The notes under the pieces: generated by a model | What the model was told of the DNA's origin: nothing | The model's database searches: none | What the model saw: only the letters and a program-made list of their open reading frames with translations | Assembly: GCA_036489885.1 (NCBI GenBank) | Contig: DASXEW010000003.1 | Location: 434,001-498,000 of the forward strand | Source of the DNA: Candidatus Baltobacteraceae bacterium | GTDB taxonomy: Bacteria > Vulcanimicrobiota > Vulcanimicrobiia > Vulcanimicrobiales > Vulcanimicrobiaceae | Length of the DNA stretch: 64,000 bases | Direction: 5' to 3' | Shown here: piece by piece, positions 3,848 to 43,572 of the stretch | Layout: every line of letters starts with the position of its first letter | Position numbering within the stretch: the first letter of the stretch is position 1 | Position numbers and translations under genes: made by a program

Positions 3848-3898
3848 AATACGCTATCGACGAGTGGCCAAGGGCACCACGGAGATGAGGTACATTTG

Positions 3899-4591
3899 AT
3901 GTTGAATGCCGCCGACGGTCTTGGAAATCTGCGGATCCAAGCGGCTTCAATGATTCGCGCGTGGCTTTTGACGGGCGATCTCGAGCCCGGGAAGCTTTAT
4001 ACCGTTGCGGATTTTGCCGTGAAGCTCAAGGTCTCGGCGACTCCAATCCGTGAGGCGCTCTTTGATTTGGCCAACGAAGGTCTCGTCGAGCCGGTAAAAA
4101 ACCGGGGCTTTCGTGTGTTGACGCTGACCGAGCACGACCTTGATGAGATCTTCGAGCTCAGAACGTTGCTCGAGGTTCCCGCTGTCCGCAAGATCGCGCA
4201 AAAAGGCCTCGGCGAGAGCGCAAAGTCTCTGAAGGCGCTGATCAAGGAAGGTCAACGGTACGCTGCTGACGGCGATCTGCCACACTTCCTGGAGTCGGAT
4301 CGCCGGTTCCATCTCAGCCTCCTGGAACTCAGCGGCAATCATCGTTTATGCACGATCGTCGCGCGTTTACGCGATCAGACAAGGTTGTGGGGATTGCCCA
4401 AGCTTGCGGAAGTTGGCAATCTCGTGCCGTCCGCGCGCGAGCACCTCGAGCTTCTCAATGCTCTTGAGGAAGGCGACGGTGACGCCGCATCAGAGACGCT
4501 GATGCACCATCTGAAGCATACGCGAGGCATTTGGGCCGGGAAGCCTGAGTCTGTAAAAACTGTAAAAACGACGCTCGCGCCGCGACGCTGA
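3899..4591 (+). CDS. GntR family transcriptional regulator (FCD subfamily)
   Basis: 230-aa regulator. The N-terminal winged helix (~10-75) carries the signature SATPIREALFDLANEGLVEP, followed by the wing NRGFRVLTLT. The C-terminal all-helical FCD ligand domain (~85-215) includes FELRTLLEVPA and the metal-ligand region DRRFHLSLLELSGN. ATG 3899 is preferred over TTG 3896 because GGAGATGAGG lies just upstream. It is followed 7 bp later by the ornithine-cyclodeaminase-family gene and faces the TonB receptor divergently. FCD regulators of such catabolic clusters usually repress until an organic or amino acid ligand binds. It probably controls both directions through the palindrome at 3826-3841. 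Confidence 0.92.
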   Translation: MLNAADGLGNLRIQAASMIRAWLLTGDLEPGKLYTVADFAVKLKVSATPIREALFDLANEGLVEPVKNRGFRVLTLTEHDLDEIFELRTLLEVPAVRKIAQKGLGESAKSLKALIKEGQRYAADGDLPHFLESDRRFHLSLLELSGNHRLCTIVARLRDQTRLWGLPKLAEVGNLVPSAREHLELLNALEEGDGDAASETLMHHLKHTRGIWAGKPESVKTVKTTLAPRR

Positions 4592-5573: not shown

Positions 5574-7156
5574 CGAGCCGCTCCACGACAGTAATCGCCG
5601 GCGGGAAAGTGCTCGATGGACTGGGTGGCGCCGCGCAGGACTGCGACGTCTATATCCGAGACGCGCGCATTGATGATCTTCGCCCCCATTCGGACAGCCA
5701 TAGAGGCTACGACGTCATTGATGCTGCGGGGCTAACTATAACTCCAGGCTTCATCGACACCCACTCTCATGCCGATAATGCTCCGTTCGTTCATGAGAAC
5801 GACACGATGAAGATTCTCCAAGGCGTCACGACAGAAGTTGTCGGCAATTGCGGTTTCAGTCTCGCGCCGGTTTCGTTTGAATGGCGTGAAGAGCATCAGA
5901 ACATGGTTTCCGCATGGCCGCACAGTTTTGCGGGTTCTTCGTTTGCGGAGCTACTTGCAGAGACCGATAAGCTCGGCTACATGTCCAACTATGTCCCGCT
6001 CGTTGGACACGGTGCGATACGGCTGGCAGCGATGGGTATGGACAACCGGGAGCCGACTCGACAAGAGCAAATCCGGATGGAAGTGCTTTTGGAAGCAGCG
6101 CTCGATGCGGGCGCATTCGGCATGTCGACCGGCCTCGTCTATCCTCCAGGAGTCTTCTCGAAAACGGACGAGATCGTGAACCTCGCAAAACGTCTTCGAC
6201 CGCATTCGATTTATGCGTCGCATATTCGAGGCGAAGGTTCAACTCTTTTGGAAGCCGTCGCCGAAGCATTGCAGATTGGAGAGTCCTCAGCGAGGCGCCT
6301 CGTTCTCTCTCACCACAAGGCGACAGGCAAGCGGAACTGGGGCGCGACGGAGCGCTCATTACAGCTCATACAAGACGCTCGAGATCGTGGCGTCGACGTC
6401 TATCAAGACATGTATCCGTACACGGCCGGCTCAACGTTTCTATCCGCGCTAATACCGCCCGAGTTTCACGAAGGCGGCAAAAAGATGCTGCTGTCGCGTT
6501 TAACCGATCGGTCCGAGTTGCAGCGTATTCAAAAGCGTCTTGACGAATCGCCGACAAGCGGTTTTCAAAATACACTATTCGAGTCGGGCTATGAATCCGT
6601 GCTGATATCTTTGACCAACAGCAGGAAATTCGAGGGACAAACGTTAGTCGAGGCAGCTCGCAGTTTGGGTAGGTCTAACTTCGATACACTCATCCATATT
6701 TTGGTTACAGAAGATCTTTCGCCGCAGATGATCGTGTTCTTCATTGATGAGAACGACATCGAACGCGTAATGCGCAATAAACGCACCGCATTTGGGTCCG
6801 ATGGAGCGTTTCCGGGAACCATCGGAAAGTCGCATCCGCGAACGTTTGGTACTTTTCCGCGTGTCCTTTCGCGTTATGTCCGCGACAAGGCTGTCCTTAC
6901 GTTGGAGGAGGGAGTACGCAAAATGACCAGCCTGCCGGCTGAGATGTTCCATCTCGGCGAGGTCGGGCAGATTGCACCTAGTAAGCTGGCCGATCTCGTC
7001 GCGTTTGATGCCGCAACGATCTCGGACGATCTCGACTATCGGGATCCCGTACGACTGCCAAAAGGAATCGCTTGGGTCATGCAGAGCGGCCAAGTCGTTG
7101 TTAAAGACAATCAATTTTGGGGTGCGCGCCGCGGCCGTCGTTTCGAACCTAAATAG
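5570..7156 (+). CDS. N-acyl-D-amino-acid deacylase (D-aminoacylase), amidohydrolase superfamily
   Basis: 528-aa zinc amidohydrolase that hydrolyses N-acyl-D-amino acids to D-amino acid plus acid. The start is ATG 5570, overlapping the upstream stop; the open frame runs 26 codons further upstream, but that part lies inside the previous gene. Metal and catalytic residues of the D-aminoacylase clade are present: HSHAD (H65, H67), the clade-specific metal-ligand cysteine in VVGNCGFS (C94), SHIRGEG (H218), LSHHKATG (H248/249) and FGSDGAFPG (D411). Product D-amino acids would feed the FAD oxidoreductase at the window start. Its 3' end overlaps the convergent racemase gene by 8 bp. Confidence 0.92.
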   Translation: MTSRSTTVIAGGKVLDGLGGAAQDCDVYIRDARIDDLRPHSDSHRGYDVIDAAGLTITPGFIDTHSHADNAPFVHENDTMKILQGVTTEVVGNCGFSLAPVSFEWREEHQNMVSAWPHSFAGSSFAELLAETDKLGYMSNYVPLVGHGAIRLAAMGMDNREPTRQEQIRMEVLLEAALDAGAFGMSTGLVYPPGVFSKTDEIVNLAKRLRPHSIYASHIRGEGSTLLEAVAEALQIGESSARRLVLSHHKATGKRNWGATERSLQLIQDARDRGVDVYQDMYPYTAGSTFLSALIPPEFHEGGKKMLLSRLTDRSELQRIQKRLDESPTSGFQNTLFESGYESVLISLTNSRKFEGQTLVEAARSLGRSNFDTLIHILVTEDLSPQMIVFFIDENDIERVMRNKRTAFGSDGAFPGTIGKSHPRTFGTFPRVLSRYVRDKAVLTLEEGVRKMTSLPAEMFHLGEVGQIAPSKLADLVAFDAATISDDLDYRDPVRLPKGIAWVMQSGQVVVKDNQFWGARRGRRFEPK

Positions 7157-8234
7157 GTTCTCCAATACTCTCCAGTACCGTTATGCCGAGTCCCGGAGCG
7201 GTTGACGCAGCGAGACGACCGTTTTTTCGAATGGGAGCGCCATCGGCCGTCCGTAGCGTGACGTAGCTGTTGAAGTCGGTCGATGAGAACAGCAGTCGCG
7301 ACGGCGTGCTGTGGGCGAGGTGTGCGATCGCGGCAGTGATAATATCGCTGCCCCACTGATCTTCGATCGTCATCGCGATGCCGAGCGAGATGCACACATC
7401 GCGGATCTGTCGCGCCTTCGTGAGTCCGCCGACCTTAGATATCTTGAGGTTGATCGCGTCCATCGCGTGGTCTGCGTGAGCACGAAGAAGCGCAGCAATA
7501 CCGTCGATAACCTCATCGAGGATGAAGGGCCGGTCCGTCTTGCTGCGTACCGCAAGGCATTCTTCATACGTGGCGCAAGGCTGTTCAATGTAAACATCGA
7601 GTGCGCGAACCGCGTCGACCACGCGGACTGCTTCATGCTGGGTCCAACCGCCGTTGGCGTCGGCGACGAGCACATCCCCGGGAGCGAGTGCCACCGCGAC
7701 AGCGCTGATTCGCTCAATGTCGAGATCAGGCTCACCGCCAACCTTGAGTTGGAACTTGCGATACCCTTCGTTGCGGTACGACTTGACGCTGCGCACCATC
7801 GCTTCCGGCGACTCTTGCGAAATAGCTCGATAGAGTGCATAATCCTCGCCGCAGCGGCCACCGAGCAGCGTGACTATAGGCAGATCGGTTGACTTCCCGA
7901 GGATATCCCAGCAGGCGATGTCGATGGCCGACTTCGCATATCCGTGGCCGCGAAGTGCTTCGTCCATGCGGCGATTGATGTTGCCGAGTTCTCGCGGATC
8001 TGCACCGATCAGGGCCGGCGCCAATATCGCAATCGCGGCTCGCGCGCCCTCCGGAAAAGCCGGTAGATACGCCGGCAGCGGGCAGAACTCGCCGTAACCC
8101 GAGACGCCCGCGTCGGTATCGATCCGGACGATGGTAGAATCGAACGTCATCGCGACGCGGCCGCCGGAGAAACGATAGGCGCCTTCGTTAAGCGGAAGGT
8201 CGACACGATAGACTTGAATGTTACTGATGCGCAC
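7149..8234 (-). CDS. Mandelate racemase/muconate lactonizing enzyme family protein, resembling 4-hydroxyproline betaine 2-epimerase or cis-3-hydroxyproline dehydratase
   Basis: 361-aa enolase-superfamily member. GTG 8234 gives MRISNIQVYRVDLP, matching the family N-terminus; the frame is open for 78 more codons upstream, but these run through the operator and promoter. Key residues are K164 (FQLKVGG), Mg ligands D192 (VADANGG), E217 (YIEQP) and the ILDE pair at 240/241, and the opposing K264 (INLKISKVGG). Two lysines facing each other allow 1,1-proton transfer (epimerisation) or dehydration. From remembered family sequences the N-terminal 115 residues look closest to HpbD-type epimerases of proline or hydroxyproline betaine. 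N-acyl-amino-acid racemase activity would also suit the neighbouring D-aminoacylase. Convergent 8-bp overlap with the deacylase. Confidence 0.85.
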   Translation of the reverse strand: MRISNIQVYRVDLPLNEGAYRFSGGRVAMTFDSTIVRIDTDAGVSGYGEFCPLPAYLPAFPEGARAAIAILAPALIGADPRELGNINRRMDEALRGHGYAKSAIDIACWDILGKSTDLPIVTLLGGRCGEDYALYRAISQESPEAMVRSVKSYRNEGYRKFQLKVGGEPDLDIERISAVAVALAPGDVLVADANGGWTQHEAVRVVDAVRALDVYIEQPCATYEECLAVRSKTDRPFILDEVIDGIAALLRAHADHAMDAINLKISKVGGLTKARQIRDVCISLGIAMTIEDQWGSDIITAAIAHLAHSTPSRLLFSSTDFNSYVTLRTADGAPIRKNGRLAASTAPGLGITVLESIGEPI

Positions 8235-8263
8235 GCCGGGTGGCTTCGTCTGCGCTATACCAT

Positions 8264-8289
8264 ATCCTATAGGATTTTCTATAGGGTTC
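8264..8289. promoter_or_regulatory. Candidate GntR operator O1 (upstream of racemase gene)
   Basis: Contains the perfect 12-bp palindrome ATCCTATAGGAT (8264-8275), then a second CTATAG half-site (8279-8284). Essentially the same 25-bp arrangement recurs at 8501-8526, just before the GntR gene. It lies 30 bp upstream of the proposed racemase start (GTG 8234), consistent with an operator overlapping the racemase promoter. Confidence 0.65.
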
Positions 8290-8500
8290 ATGGGACCAAA
8301 AAGCGCCGCGTGGCGAGGCGCGCGACGAAGAACGTGGGCCGACGCGCCAATGACTACCATGTATGACGCCTCCGCGTCATCAAAGAGCTTGGCGAGCATC
8401 GAAAGCCAGGTTGCGAAGCTGCTCACCAGCCTACTCAGTGCTTCGGAGGCTACTCCGCGCCAGGTCATTAGGCCACGAGGTTAGCGCTTGCGGTTGTGCG

Positions 8501-8526
8501 ATCCTATAGGATTTCATATAGTAGGC
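8501..8526. promoter_or_regulatory. Candidate GntR operator O2 (upstream of gntR)
   Basis: Second copy of the ATCCTATAGGAT palindrome (8501-8512), followed by TTCATATAGTAGG. The GntR reading frame could formally start at GTG 8496, but this would place the operator inside the coding sequence, so the GTG at 8529 is preferred. The two operators are 237 bp apart in a divergent intergenic region, an arrangement compatible with autoregulation and looping. Confidence 0.65.
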
Positions 8527-8528
8527 CT

Positions 8529-9251
8529 GTGGCAAAGAAGCTTACTACTCGGAGGGTCGCGCTAAGCCCGGTTGCGTCAATTCGAAGGTCAATCGCGAGC
8601 GGCGCATTTCGCGAAGGCGAACCATTGCGTCAAGACGACCTAGCTGAACGCTACGGAACCAGCACTATCCCGGTGCGCGAGGCGCTGCGTCAGCTCGAAG
8701 GCGAGGGGCTCGTCCGCTTTCTACCCAACCGCGGCTTCGTCGTGTCGGCTTTAAGCGCAGCCGAAATTCGCGAACTGTGCGAAAACCGCGTCTTACTCGA
8801 ATCGCACGCGCTGCGCCTCGCAATTCCCTACCTCAGTCGGGTTACTCTCAGTCGCGCGGCACAGATATTGGATGCTTCGGACCAGGATACAAACTACGTA
8901 CAAACTTGGGGCGACCGCAACTGGGAATTTCACTCGACACTCTATTCCGCTTCGAAGCGCCCACTGTTGCTCGGCATGATCGAACGTATGCACGTGCACG
9001 TCGATCGTTATCTGCGTGCCCACGTTACGCTTGCGAATTATCGCGACCAGGGCCAGAGGGAGCACCGTGCCATCTTACGCGCCTGCCGCCGTAAGGACGT
9101 CGAAACCGCTCTGGCTTGTTTGCGCTCTCACATCCTCGACGTGGCAGACGTGCTGTGCCCTATCCTCGAGCAACGCGAAGCGCTACACGTTCTCACCGAT
9201 AGGCCTCGCCGGCTCACACGGCCAGCCTCGCGCGTCGCGACCCGGAGCTGA
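8529..9251 (+). CDS. GntR family transcriptional regulator (FCD subfamily)
   Basis: 240-aa regulator. The winged-helix DNA-binding domain (~15-80) has GTSTIPVREALRQLEGEGLV and the wing NRGFVVSALS. The C-terminal FCD domain (~90-215) has RVLLESHALRLAIPYL and NWEFHSTLYSASKRPLL. The start is taken as GTG 8529 so that the palindromic operator at 8501-8526 stays upstream. It is divergent from the racemase gene and is the probable binder of the paired ATCCTATAGGAT sites. It is a second, separate FCD regulator in the same amino-acid island, suggesting that the racemase responds to a different inducer from the deacylase operon (inference). Confidence 0.9.
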   Translation: MAKKLTTRRVALSPVASIRRSIASGAFREGEPLRQDDLAERYGTSTIPVREALRQLEGEGLVRFLPNRGFVVSALSAAEIRELCENRVLLESHALRLAIPYLSRVTLSRAAQILDASDQDTNYVQTWGDRNWEFHSTLYSASKRPLLLGMIERMHVHVDRYLRAHVTLANYRDQGQREHRAILRACRRKDVETALACLRSHILDVADVLCPILEQREALHVLTDRPRRLTRPASRVATRS

Positions 9252-42495: not shown

Positions 42496-43572
42496 ATGAA
42501 AGCACTTCGTCTTTTTGCGGTCATGATTGCGGCGCTCGCATTCGTGGCATTTCCTCTAACGGCGCGAGCGCAAGTCTCGGTCGGGATCTCGATCGGAACG
42601 CCACCTCCGCCGATCCCGGTCTACGCCGTTCCGGGCCCACCGGGTCCCAATTACGTCTGGGAACCGGGCTATTGGGCGTGGGGCCCCGGCGGCTATTACT
42701 GGGTCCCCGGCACATGGGTGTATGCGCCCCAATACGGGCTGTACTGGACGCCCGGTTATTGGAATTGGACCGGATTCGGCTTCGCGTTCGTCGCCGGATA
42801 TTGGGGCCCGCAAGTCGGCTACTACGGCGGCGTCAACTACGGCGGCGGCTATTGGGGTAACGGCTACGTCGGCGGTTACTGGCGGCACAATTCGTTCGTC
42901 TACAACACCTATGTCGTCAACGTAAACCGCAACGCCGTCGGAGGGAACGTCTACTACCATTCGTATCCGCGCGGCGGAACGCAAGTAGGCTATGTCGGCG
43001 GAACCGGCGGGTTGCGGACGCGTCCAACCGCTCAACAAACGACGTATATGCACGCGCACCACTATGCGCCGACGTCCGCGCAGGTTCAACACGCGCAGAT
43101 CGCGTCGCAGAATCGCGCCTACTATGCGCACGTCAACAACGGACGCCCGGCGACTGCCGCAGTAGCTCGCCCCTACACGGCCGCAACGCGACCTGCGAAT
43201 TTCCGTCCGGTGACGACGCAAGATCGCACCGCGGCGCAGGCTGCCATCAGGCATGCGCCGGCCGCAGCTCCGCACGCAGCCCCAATGCAACATGCGGCTC
43301 CGGCGCACGCGGCGCCAGTGCATCATGCGGCTCCGGCGCACGCGGCCCCAATGCAACATGCGGCTCCGGCGCACGCGGCCCCAATGCAACATGCGGCTCC
43401 GGCGCACGCGGCCCCAATGCATCATGCGGCTCCGGCGCACGCGGCCCCAATGCATCATGCGGCTCCGGCGCACGCGGCCCCAATGCAACATGCGGCTCCC
43501 GCGCACGCGGCGCCTCAGCATGCTGCGCCGCAACACGCAGCCCCACCAGGCGATCACAAGGAGCAGCACTAG
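42496..43572 (+). CDS. YXWGXW-repeat secreted protein with His/Ala/Pro-rich repeat tail
   Basis: 358-aa exported protein from ATG 42496 (AAGGAC 6 nt upstream); the frame opens earlier inside the SDR gene. Signal peptide MKALRLFAVMIAALAFVAF to ARA. Residues ~50-130 are WxxGxW-type repeats (YVWEPGYWAWGPGGYYWVPG, LYWTPGYWNW, VAGYWGP), then a Gly/Tyr-rich segment. Residues ~255-345 are a tandem array of HAAPAHAAPM(Q/H), 11 residues per unit, which could bind metals. The YXWGXW family is found in envelope proteins of Proteobacteria and Acidobacteriota; function unknown. A strong terminator follows at 43591. Confidence 0.85.
   Translation: MKALRLFAVMIAALAFVAFPLTARAQVSVGISIGTPPPPIPVYAVPGPPGPNYVWEPGYWAWGPGGYYWVPGTWVYAPQYGLYWTPGYWNWTGFGFAFVAGYWGPQVGYYGGVNYGGGYWGNGYVGGYWRHNSFVYNTYVVNVNRNAVGGNVYYHSYPRGGTQVGYVGGTGGLRTRPTAQQTTYMHAHHYAPTSAQVQHAQIASQNRAYYAHVNNGRPATAAVARPYTAATRPANFRPVTTQDRTAAQAAIRHAPAAAPHAAPMQHAAPAHAAPVHHAAPAHAAPMQHAAPAHAAPMQHAAPAHAAPMHHAAPAHAAPMHHAAPAHAAPMQHAAPAHAAPQHAAPQHAAPPGDHKEQH
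43291..43521 (+). repeat. Coding tandem repeat, seven 33-bp units
   Basis: Units begin with CATGCGGCTCC at 43291, 43324, 43357, 43390, 43423, 43456 and 43489, exactly 33 bp apart. Unit differences are confined to a few bases (CAACATG versus CATCATG, GGCGCCAGTG versus GGCCCCAATG). The array lies inside the YXWGXW gene and encodes HAAPAHAAPMQ-type units. The high identity suggests recent expansion by slippage or unequal exchange. Confidence 0.9.

Follow-up and report, generated by a model that had tools for sequence, protein, structure and literature searches.

Two exact copies of the mirror-symmetric 12-mer ATCCTATAGGAT, spaced 237 bp from start to start, lie between a gntR-type regulator gene and a divergent dehydratase gene, and we consider it likely that these palindromes are dimer sites of the adjacent FadR/FCD-type GntR protein, acting independently, one per promoter, in a regulon that a cyclic imino acid would switch on. 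The operator set is real and belongs to a known kind, although its core sequence is unusual, and its binding by GntR is predicted. The original prediction had put the pair forward as putative operators of this protein, an assignment supported by the rarity of the 12-mer, by a third copy at catabolic genes, and by the same 12-mer ahead of a gntR gene in a Deinococcales MAG.

The palindrome pair and its adjoining genes

The window analyzed here comprises 64,000 nucleotides of a Candidatus Baltobacteraceae bacterium (contig DASXEW010000003.1, positions 434,001 to 498,000), and its relevant features are collected in Table 1. The regulator scored 58 bits against the HTH model and 82.5 bits against the FCD model, both exceeding the gathering threshold, and the solved structures nearest to it were FCD regulators. 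Three histidines (His137, His181, and His203) were invariant among six aligned sequences and were matched to histidines of 3sxy; in the Streptomyces coelicolor HypR study (PMC6608401), FCD-domain histidines of this kind are described as metal ligands. The first in-frame gntR start located 3' of operator 2 is GTG 8529. A second FCD-type GntR regulator is encoded at 3896-4591, and behind it come genes for an ornithine-cyclodeaminase-family protein and an amidohydrolase.

Table 1. Features of the divergent region, in window coordinates
Feature	Position	Strand	Remarks
Dehydratase, enolase superfamily	7149..8234	-	NF043002, 570.1 bits vs cut-off of 500; start by homologs
Divergent intergenic region between both likely start codons	8235..8528		294 bp
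TATAGC	8254..8259	-	4 bases past operator 1 toward dehydratase; -10-like or weak extra half-site; within inverted repeat
Operator 1 (putative), ATCCTATAGGAT	8264..8275		29 bases upstream of dehydratase start codon GTG 8234-8232 (minus strand)
TTTCTATAGGGT, degenerate operator copy, 3 mismatches	8276..8287	+	adjoins operator 1, distal to dehydratase; contains CTATAG
Operator 2 (putative), ATCCTATAGGAT	8501..8512		16 bases upstream of gntR start codon GTG 8529-8531
TATAGT	8517..8522	+	4 bases past operator 2 toward gntR; overlaps ATATAG; -10-like or weak extra half-site
gntR-type regulator, FadR/FCD subfamily	8529..9251	+	GntR HTH (PF00392) and FCD (PF07729)

The gene on the other side, which had been labeled a racemase, proved to be an enolase-superfamily dehydratase, a hydroxyproline dehydratase, by its NF043002 score. 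All nine dehydratase homologs among the fetched loci had a start codon at the residue of GTG 8234 (ATG-type in eight, a Val codon in one), which places the site outside both genes, as the original prediction had implied, and shows that the longer frames running through the operator are not the gene. The 237 bp that had been given as the length of the divergent promoter holds for the spacing of the sites; the gap between the start codons, 8234 (minus) to 8529 (plus), is 294 bp. A small intergenic ORF at 8290-8484 (plus strand, 64 codons) is unlikely to be a gene, its G+C by codon position (0.547, 0.656, and 0.641) being unlike that of the adjoining dehydratase and gntR genes.

A scan of the 3.48-Mb genome for ATCCTATAGGAT with up to one mismatch returned four places, three of them exact and within 17.2 kb of one another, and one with a single mismatch inside an ORF that by eye has the look of a SNF2-type helicase, so that the many unrelated copies for which a genome scan had been advised were not there. 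The backward control pattern, under the same tolerance, gave two places in the whole genome. Since the expected number of exact copies in the genome, computed with the base composition of the window, is only 0.079 if bases are independent and 0.026 under a first-order Markov model, the three exact copies cannot be put down to chance. Among the 44 perfect 12-bp palindromes of the window, three sequences recurred, and ATCCTATAGGAT was the only one of these with copies less than 300 bp apart. One result would favor a chance origin: in shuffles of the window alone with two mismatches allowed, two matches were reached in 12 of 100, and the significance of ATCCTATAGGAT therefore derives from its exactness and its genome-wide count. 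Given that count, the clustering of the copies, and their intergenic placement at related genes, chance or a non-regulatory repeat is an extremely improbable explanation; identity between the two operator regions was also lost outside about 25 bp, unlike in a mobile repeat. A literature search covering few subscription papers returned no paper containing the string ATCCTATAGGAT. Elsewhere in the window, a tandem array with a 33-base period, in which 12-mers recur every 33 bases, occupies 43270-43514.

A third copy and the spaced TATA elements

The third exact copy of ATCCTATAGGAT, at C3:425306 and 17 kb before the pair in the window, is a single site in the 48-bp gap between a DapA-family gene (minus strand) and a divergent proline-racemase-family gene. 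The best match of the latter was 4-hydroxyproline epimerase, with scores below the curated cut-offs (365.7 vs 442 bits for NF010577 and 358 vs 450 bits for NF052296); these scores clearly assign it to the 4-hydroxyproline-epimerase family, though not to one exact substrate. Sixteen bases separate the site from the ATG of this gene, a distance identical to that at gntR. Downstream of the epimerase-family gene are genes for an FAD oxidoreductase, an aldehyde dehydrogenase, and an acetamidase/formamidase-family protein. The aldehyde dehydrogenase (L005:11448-12983) scored 754.1 bits, above the cut-off of 730 for L-piperidine-6-carboxylate dehydrogenase, an indication of lysine/pipecolate chemistry next to the hydroxyproline-type genes. 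The common theme of the genes with sites is the catabolism of cyclic imino acids, namely hydroxyprolines and perhaps also pipecolate.

The spaced elements described in the original prediction were present three bases beyond each 12-mer on the plus strand (CTATAG at 8279-8284 and ATATAG at 8516-8521), and the element at the third copy is CTATAT. TATA occurs on both sides of the 8264 site, the second one at 8256-8259, and in gene direction a layout of 12-mer, four bases, and TATA is common to the dehydratase, gntR, and epimerase-family genes. For the last two, the spacing is equal as far as the start codon (12-mer, four bases, TATAGT or TATATA, six bases, start codon). With both flanks of each of the three sites counted, TATA at four bases was found on four of six; the two without it are the flank facing DapA and, at operator 2, the one on the minus strand. 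At the Deinococcales locus TATA follows the 12-mer after only one base; the spaced TATA is therefore no universal part of the site. It may act as a -10 element or as an additional weak half-site, and weaker half-sites 7 to 12 nt from the centers of GntR-family palindromes are reported by Suvorova et al. 2015 (PMC4494728). If it is a -10 element, the spacer between -35 and -10 would be filled by the operator. In a promoter scan of two places, that of TATAGT at operator 2 included, no sigma-70-type promoter passed, a result that speaks against the promoter reading.

Leaderless promoters were considered as well, and a rough check of 340 ORFs, covering 483,501 bases of the genome, gave no excess of -10-like hexamers six bases before in-frame starts (4 vs 9 before control codons). 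The idea is therefore not claimed, and this outcome too speaks against the promoter reading. In that sample, such hexamers were commonest 27 to 28 bases before in-frame starts (11 cases, compared with 7 for control codons), which hints weakly at leadered mRNAs.

Occurrence in other genomes and candidate recognition residues

Exact ATCCTATAGGAT was found in only one of 80 named loci, that of the Deinococcales MAG (L041). There it precedes the gene of a 42%-identical GntR, with 32 bases between it and the likely ATG, and is the sole copy in the genome. This occurrence ahead of a homologous gntR gene offers independent support for the predicted GntR operators. The neighboring genes there belong to the 2-oxoadipate dioxygenase, aldehyde dehydrogenase, and saccharopine-dehydrogenase families, with no hydroxyproline cluster, and the pathway therefore differs from that of the present locus; both loci touch lysine/aminoadipate-type chemistry. 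Besides the Deinococcales MAG, one of 26 other genomes scanned, a Gemmatimonadetes MAG, carried one copy, which forms the core of a longer palindrome, TGTATCCTATAGGATACA (L105:1495-1520), directly ahead of a gene labeled by eye as an antitoxin-like HTH gene. This palindrome is probably an unrelated operator, and owing to its position ATCCTATAGGAT is not exclusive to GntR.

At the 80 homologous gntR loci, an epimerase-family match was present in 34 and a dehydratase match in 9 (a hand count without a random-locus baseline), and on a Pseudomonas aeruginosa plasmid a 40%-identical GntR (164 bits) immediately precedes an annotated 4-hydroxyproline epimerase. Among 99 genomes of the bacterial family and 149 of the phylum, only the present genome had the 12-mer with the spaced TATA, and no GntR homolog in the remaining genomes of the family exceeded 50% identity. 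The pattern was thus missing where no close GntR homolog is present, which favors the assignment to GntR. The 12-mer was absent from both relatives with close DapA/epimerase homologs or the nearest GntR in the family (G029 and G054); in G029, the DapA (62%) and epimerase (59%) homologs stand beside a 39%-identical GntR with Arg48. Within this sample, the pairing of site and regulator is therefore peculiar to the present genome.

Among the 121 other loci of the regulator family with sufficient upstream sequence, 16 carried a perfect 12-bp palindrome of the form AT-N8-AT at the gntR start and 105 did not; judged from stretches elsewhere in these loci, 0.79 would be expected. The 16 positives comprised ATTGGATCCAAT (n=12, 10 of them from closely related alphaproteobacteria), ATAATATATTAT (n=2), ATCCTATAGGAT (n=1), and ATGATATATCAT (n=1), and near-perfect palindromes such as ATTGTATACAAA and TTTGTCGACAAA were found in addition. 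With four sequences among 16 palindromes, besides the near-perfect ones, the geometry of the operator is shared and its core is variable. ATTGGATCCAAT stands ahead of the gntR homologs of L079, L084, L089, L092, L093, L098-L100, L102, L103, L109, and L113, which belong to alphaproteobacteria and to genomes from the phylum of the Deinococcales MAG. No paper pairing GntR with ATTGGATCCAAT turned up in the literature search, which covered few subscription papers.

Residues 38 and 48 of the HTH are taken here to correspond to Arg35 and Arg45 of Escherichia coli FadR. Of 128 proteins of the regulator family, 107 had Arg and 10 had Lys at residue 48, and the combination of Thr or His at 48 with Asn at 69 was confined to two, the present regulator and that of L041, which are the only two with ATCCTATAGGAT. 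The rows of the residue-48 pairing were R/G 14, R/T 3, R/A 1, H/A 2, K/A 2, T/C 1, and H/C 1. Tentatively, and with rather less than even confidence, we propose that these two proteins may mark a distinct class of FadR-type operator, in which Thr/His48 and Asn69 would read ATCCTATAGGAT, whereas in the usual sites Arg/Lys48 would face G at position 4 of the 12-mer. The 48/69 pairing, which reflects few independent events, may serve as a lead toward a recognition rule. The idea, drawn from PMC4494728, that Asp38 by itself accounts for the changed core was rejected, as Asp38 proteins with ATTGGATCCAAT sites exist.

Alternative readings, known systems, and proposed mechanism

The sites could also be read as bipartite, each a palindrome with a spaced half-site, with the pair cooperating by DNA looping over the 237 bp. 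In keeping with a composite site, the spaced element recurs at all three copies and on both sides of the 8264 site, it resembles a degenerate second operator unit at a 12-bp pitch, and weaker half-sites at comparable places have been published, but the element is equally well explained as a -10 box lying four bases past the 12-mer toward each of three genes. As for looping, PMC4494728 considers 100 double-site divergons of the FadR subfamily that include a regulator gene: 29 have cooperative double sites, whereas 71 have separate sites, one near each operon, which is the layout seen here. We found nothing in the present locus in favor of the looping that had been suggested: 237 bp amounts to about 22.6 helical turns at 10.5 bp per turn, and the third site of the regulon is single. 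The same order of the two sites, earlier taken as a functional feature, was likewise unsupported, since the genes are divergent and sites in the same order face them oppositely. Composite sites joined by a loop thus appear unlikely, and it is more improbable still that the 12-mers serve another regulator, whether the second FCD-type GntR, encoded 4 kb away, or an unknown factor. The Gemmatimonadetes copy, inside an operator-like palindrome near an antitoxin-like gene, would fit such a factor, but no ATCCTATAGGAT-like site with up to three mismatches was found directly ahead of the second FCD regulator gene, and the 12-mer adjoins the 8529-9251 gene and also, as an independent case, the homologous gene of the Deinococcales MAG.

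Independent sites of the adjacent GntR protein, the preferred reading, agree with the FadR-subfamily operators of Suvorova et al. 2015 (PMC4494728), which are short palindromes of even length with the regulator gene divergent from a catabolic gene, and whose double-site divergons have one site near each gene with a weaker half-site 7 to 12 nt from the center. Against it, the core TCCT-AT-AGGA lacks the GT/AC pair typical of that subfamily and departs from its TKGT/ACMA boxes, and it is also without the GT and AC that lie 2 nt apart in the HypR sites given there. As BioR and NanR are named as exceptions in the same source, the mismatch does not exclude the protein family. Also against the preferred reading are the missing 12-mer in G029 and G054, the different pathway at the Deinococcales locus, the 105 loci without a perfect palindrome, the close relationship of 10 of the 16 positives, the Gemmatimonadetes copy, and the negative sigma-70 scan.

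Proteobacterial HypR of the Sinorhizobium meliloti type resembles the system proposed here in being a GntR repressor of hydroxyproline genes with DapA-type and epimerase targets, and it is mostly autoregulated (32 of 46 genomes), according to PMC5343134. At the S. meliloti hydroxyproline locus, the 12-bp palindromes TTTGTCGACAAG and TTTGTCGACAAA lie ahead of the GntR and DapA genes. That GntR, taken as HypR from its position, differs in operator sequence and is 31% identical to the present regulator over 145 residues (58.9 bits), and other FCD proteins outscore it, for example the P. aeruginosa plasmid GntR; by sequence comparison, the present regulator is not an ortholog of the S. meliloti-type HypR. 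HypR of Streptomyces coelicolor is likewise of the FadR subfamily, with metal-site histidines in its FCD domain, and according to PMC6608401 it is an autorepressor of the hydroxyproline regulon with a site over its own -10 region, an arrangement to which the present autorepression would correspond. Its site, CTNTGC(A/C)ATGTCAC, is of unclear symmetry, whereas the present site is a palindrome.

From the sequences, their rarity and positions, the gene families, and the Deinococcales 12-mer, we infer binding, repression, the inducer, and the promoter positions as follows. A GntR dimer would sit on each palindrome and hinder RNA polymerase at the adjoining promoter, repressing its own gene and the catabolic genes. 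A cyclic imino acid or one of its products, of the hydroxyproline type and perhaps also pipecolate, would bind the FCD domain, upon which GntR would leave the DNA and the regulon would be switched on.

For a little-studied phylum, this provides a likely operator and three-site regulon for a regulator, together with a probable pathway, the use of cyclic imino acids. If the proposed operator class is true, one site would be shared by two unrelated phyla whose proteins are 42% identical and whose pathways differ, so that two or three residues would fix the operator and make it predictable from the regulator protein. Should the 48/69 pairing hold, the FadR-type recognition code would gain a case with another sequence in place of the usual GT/AC pair.
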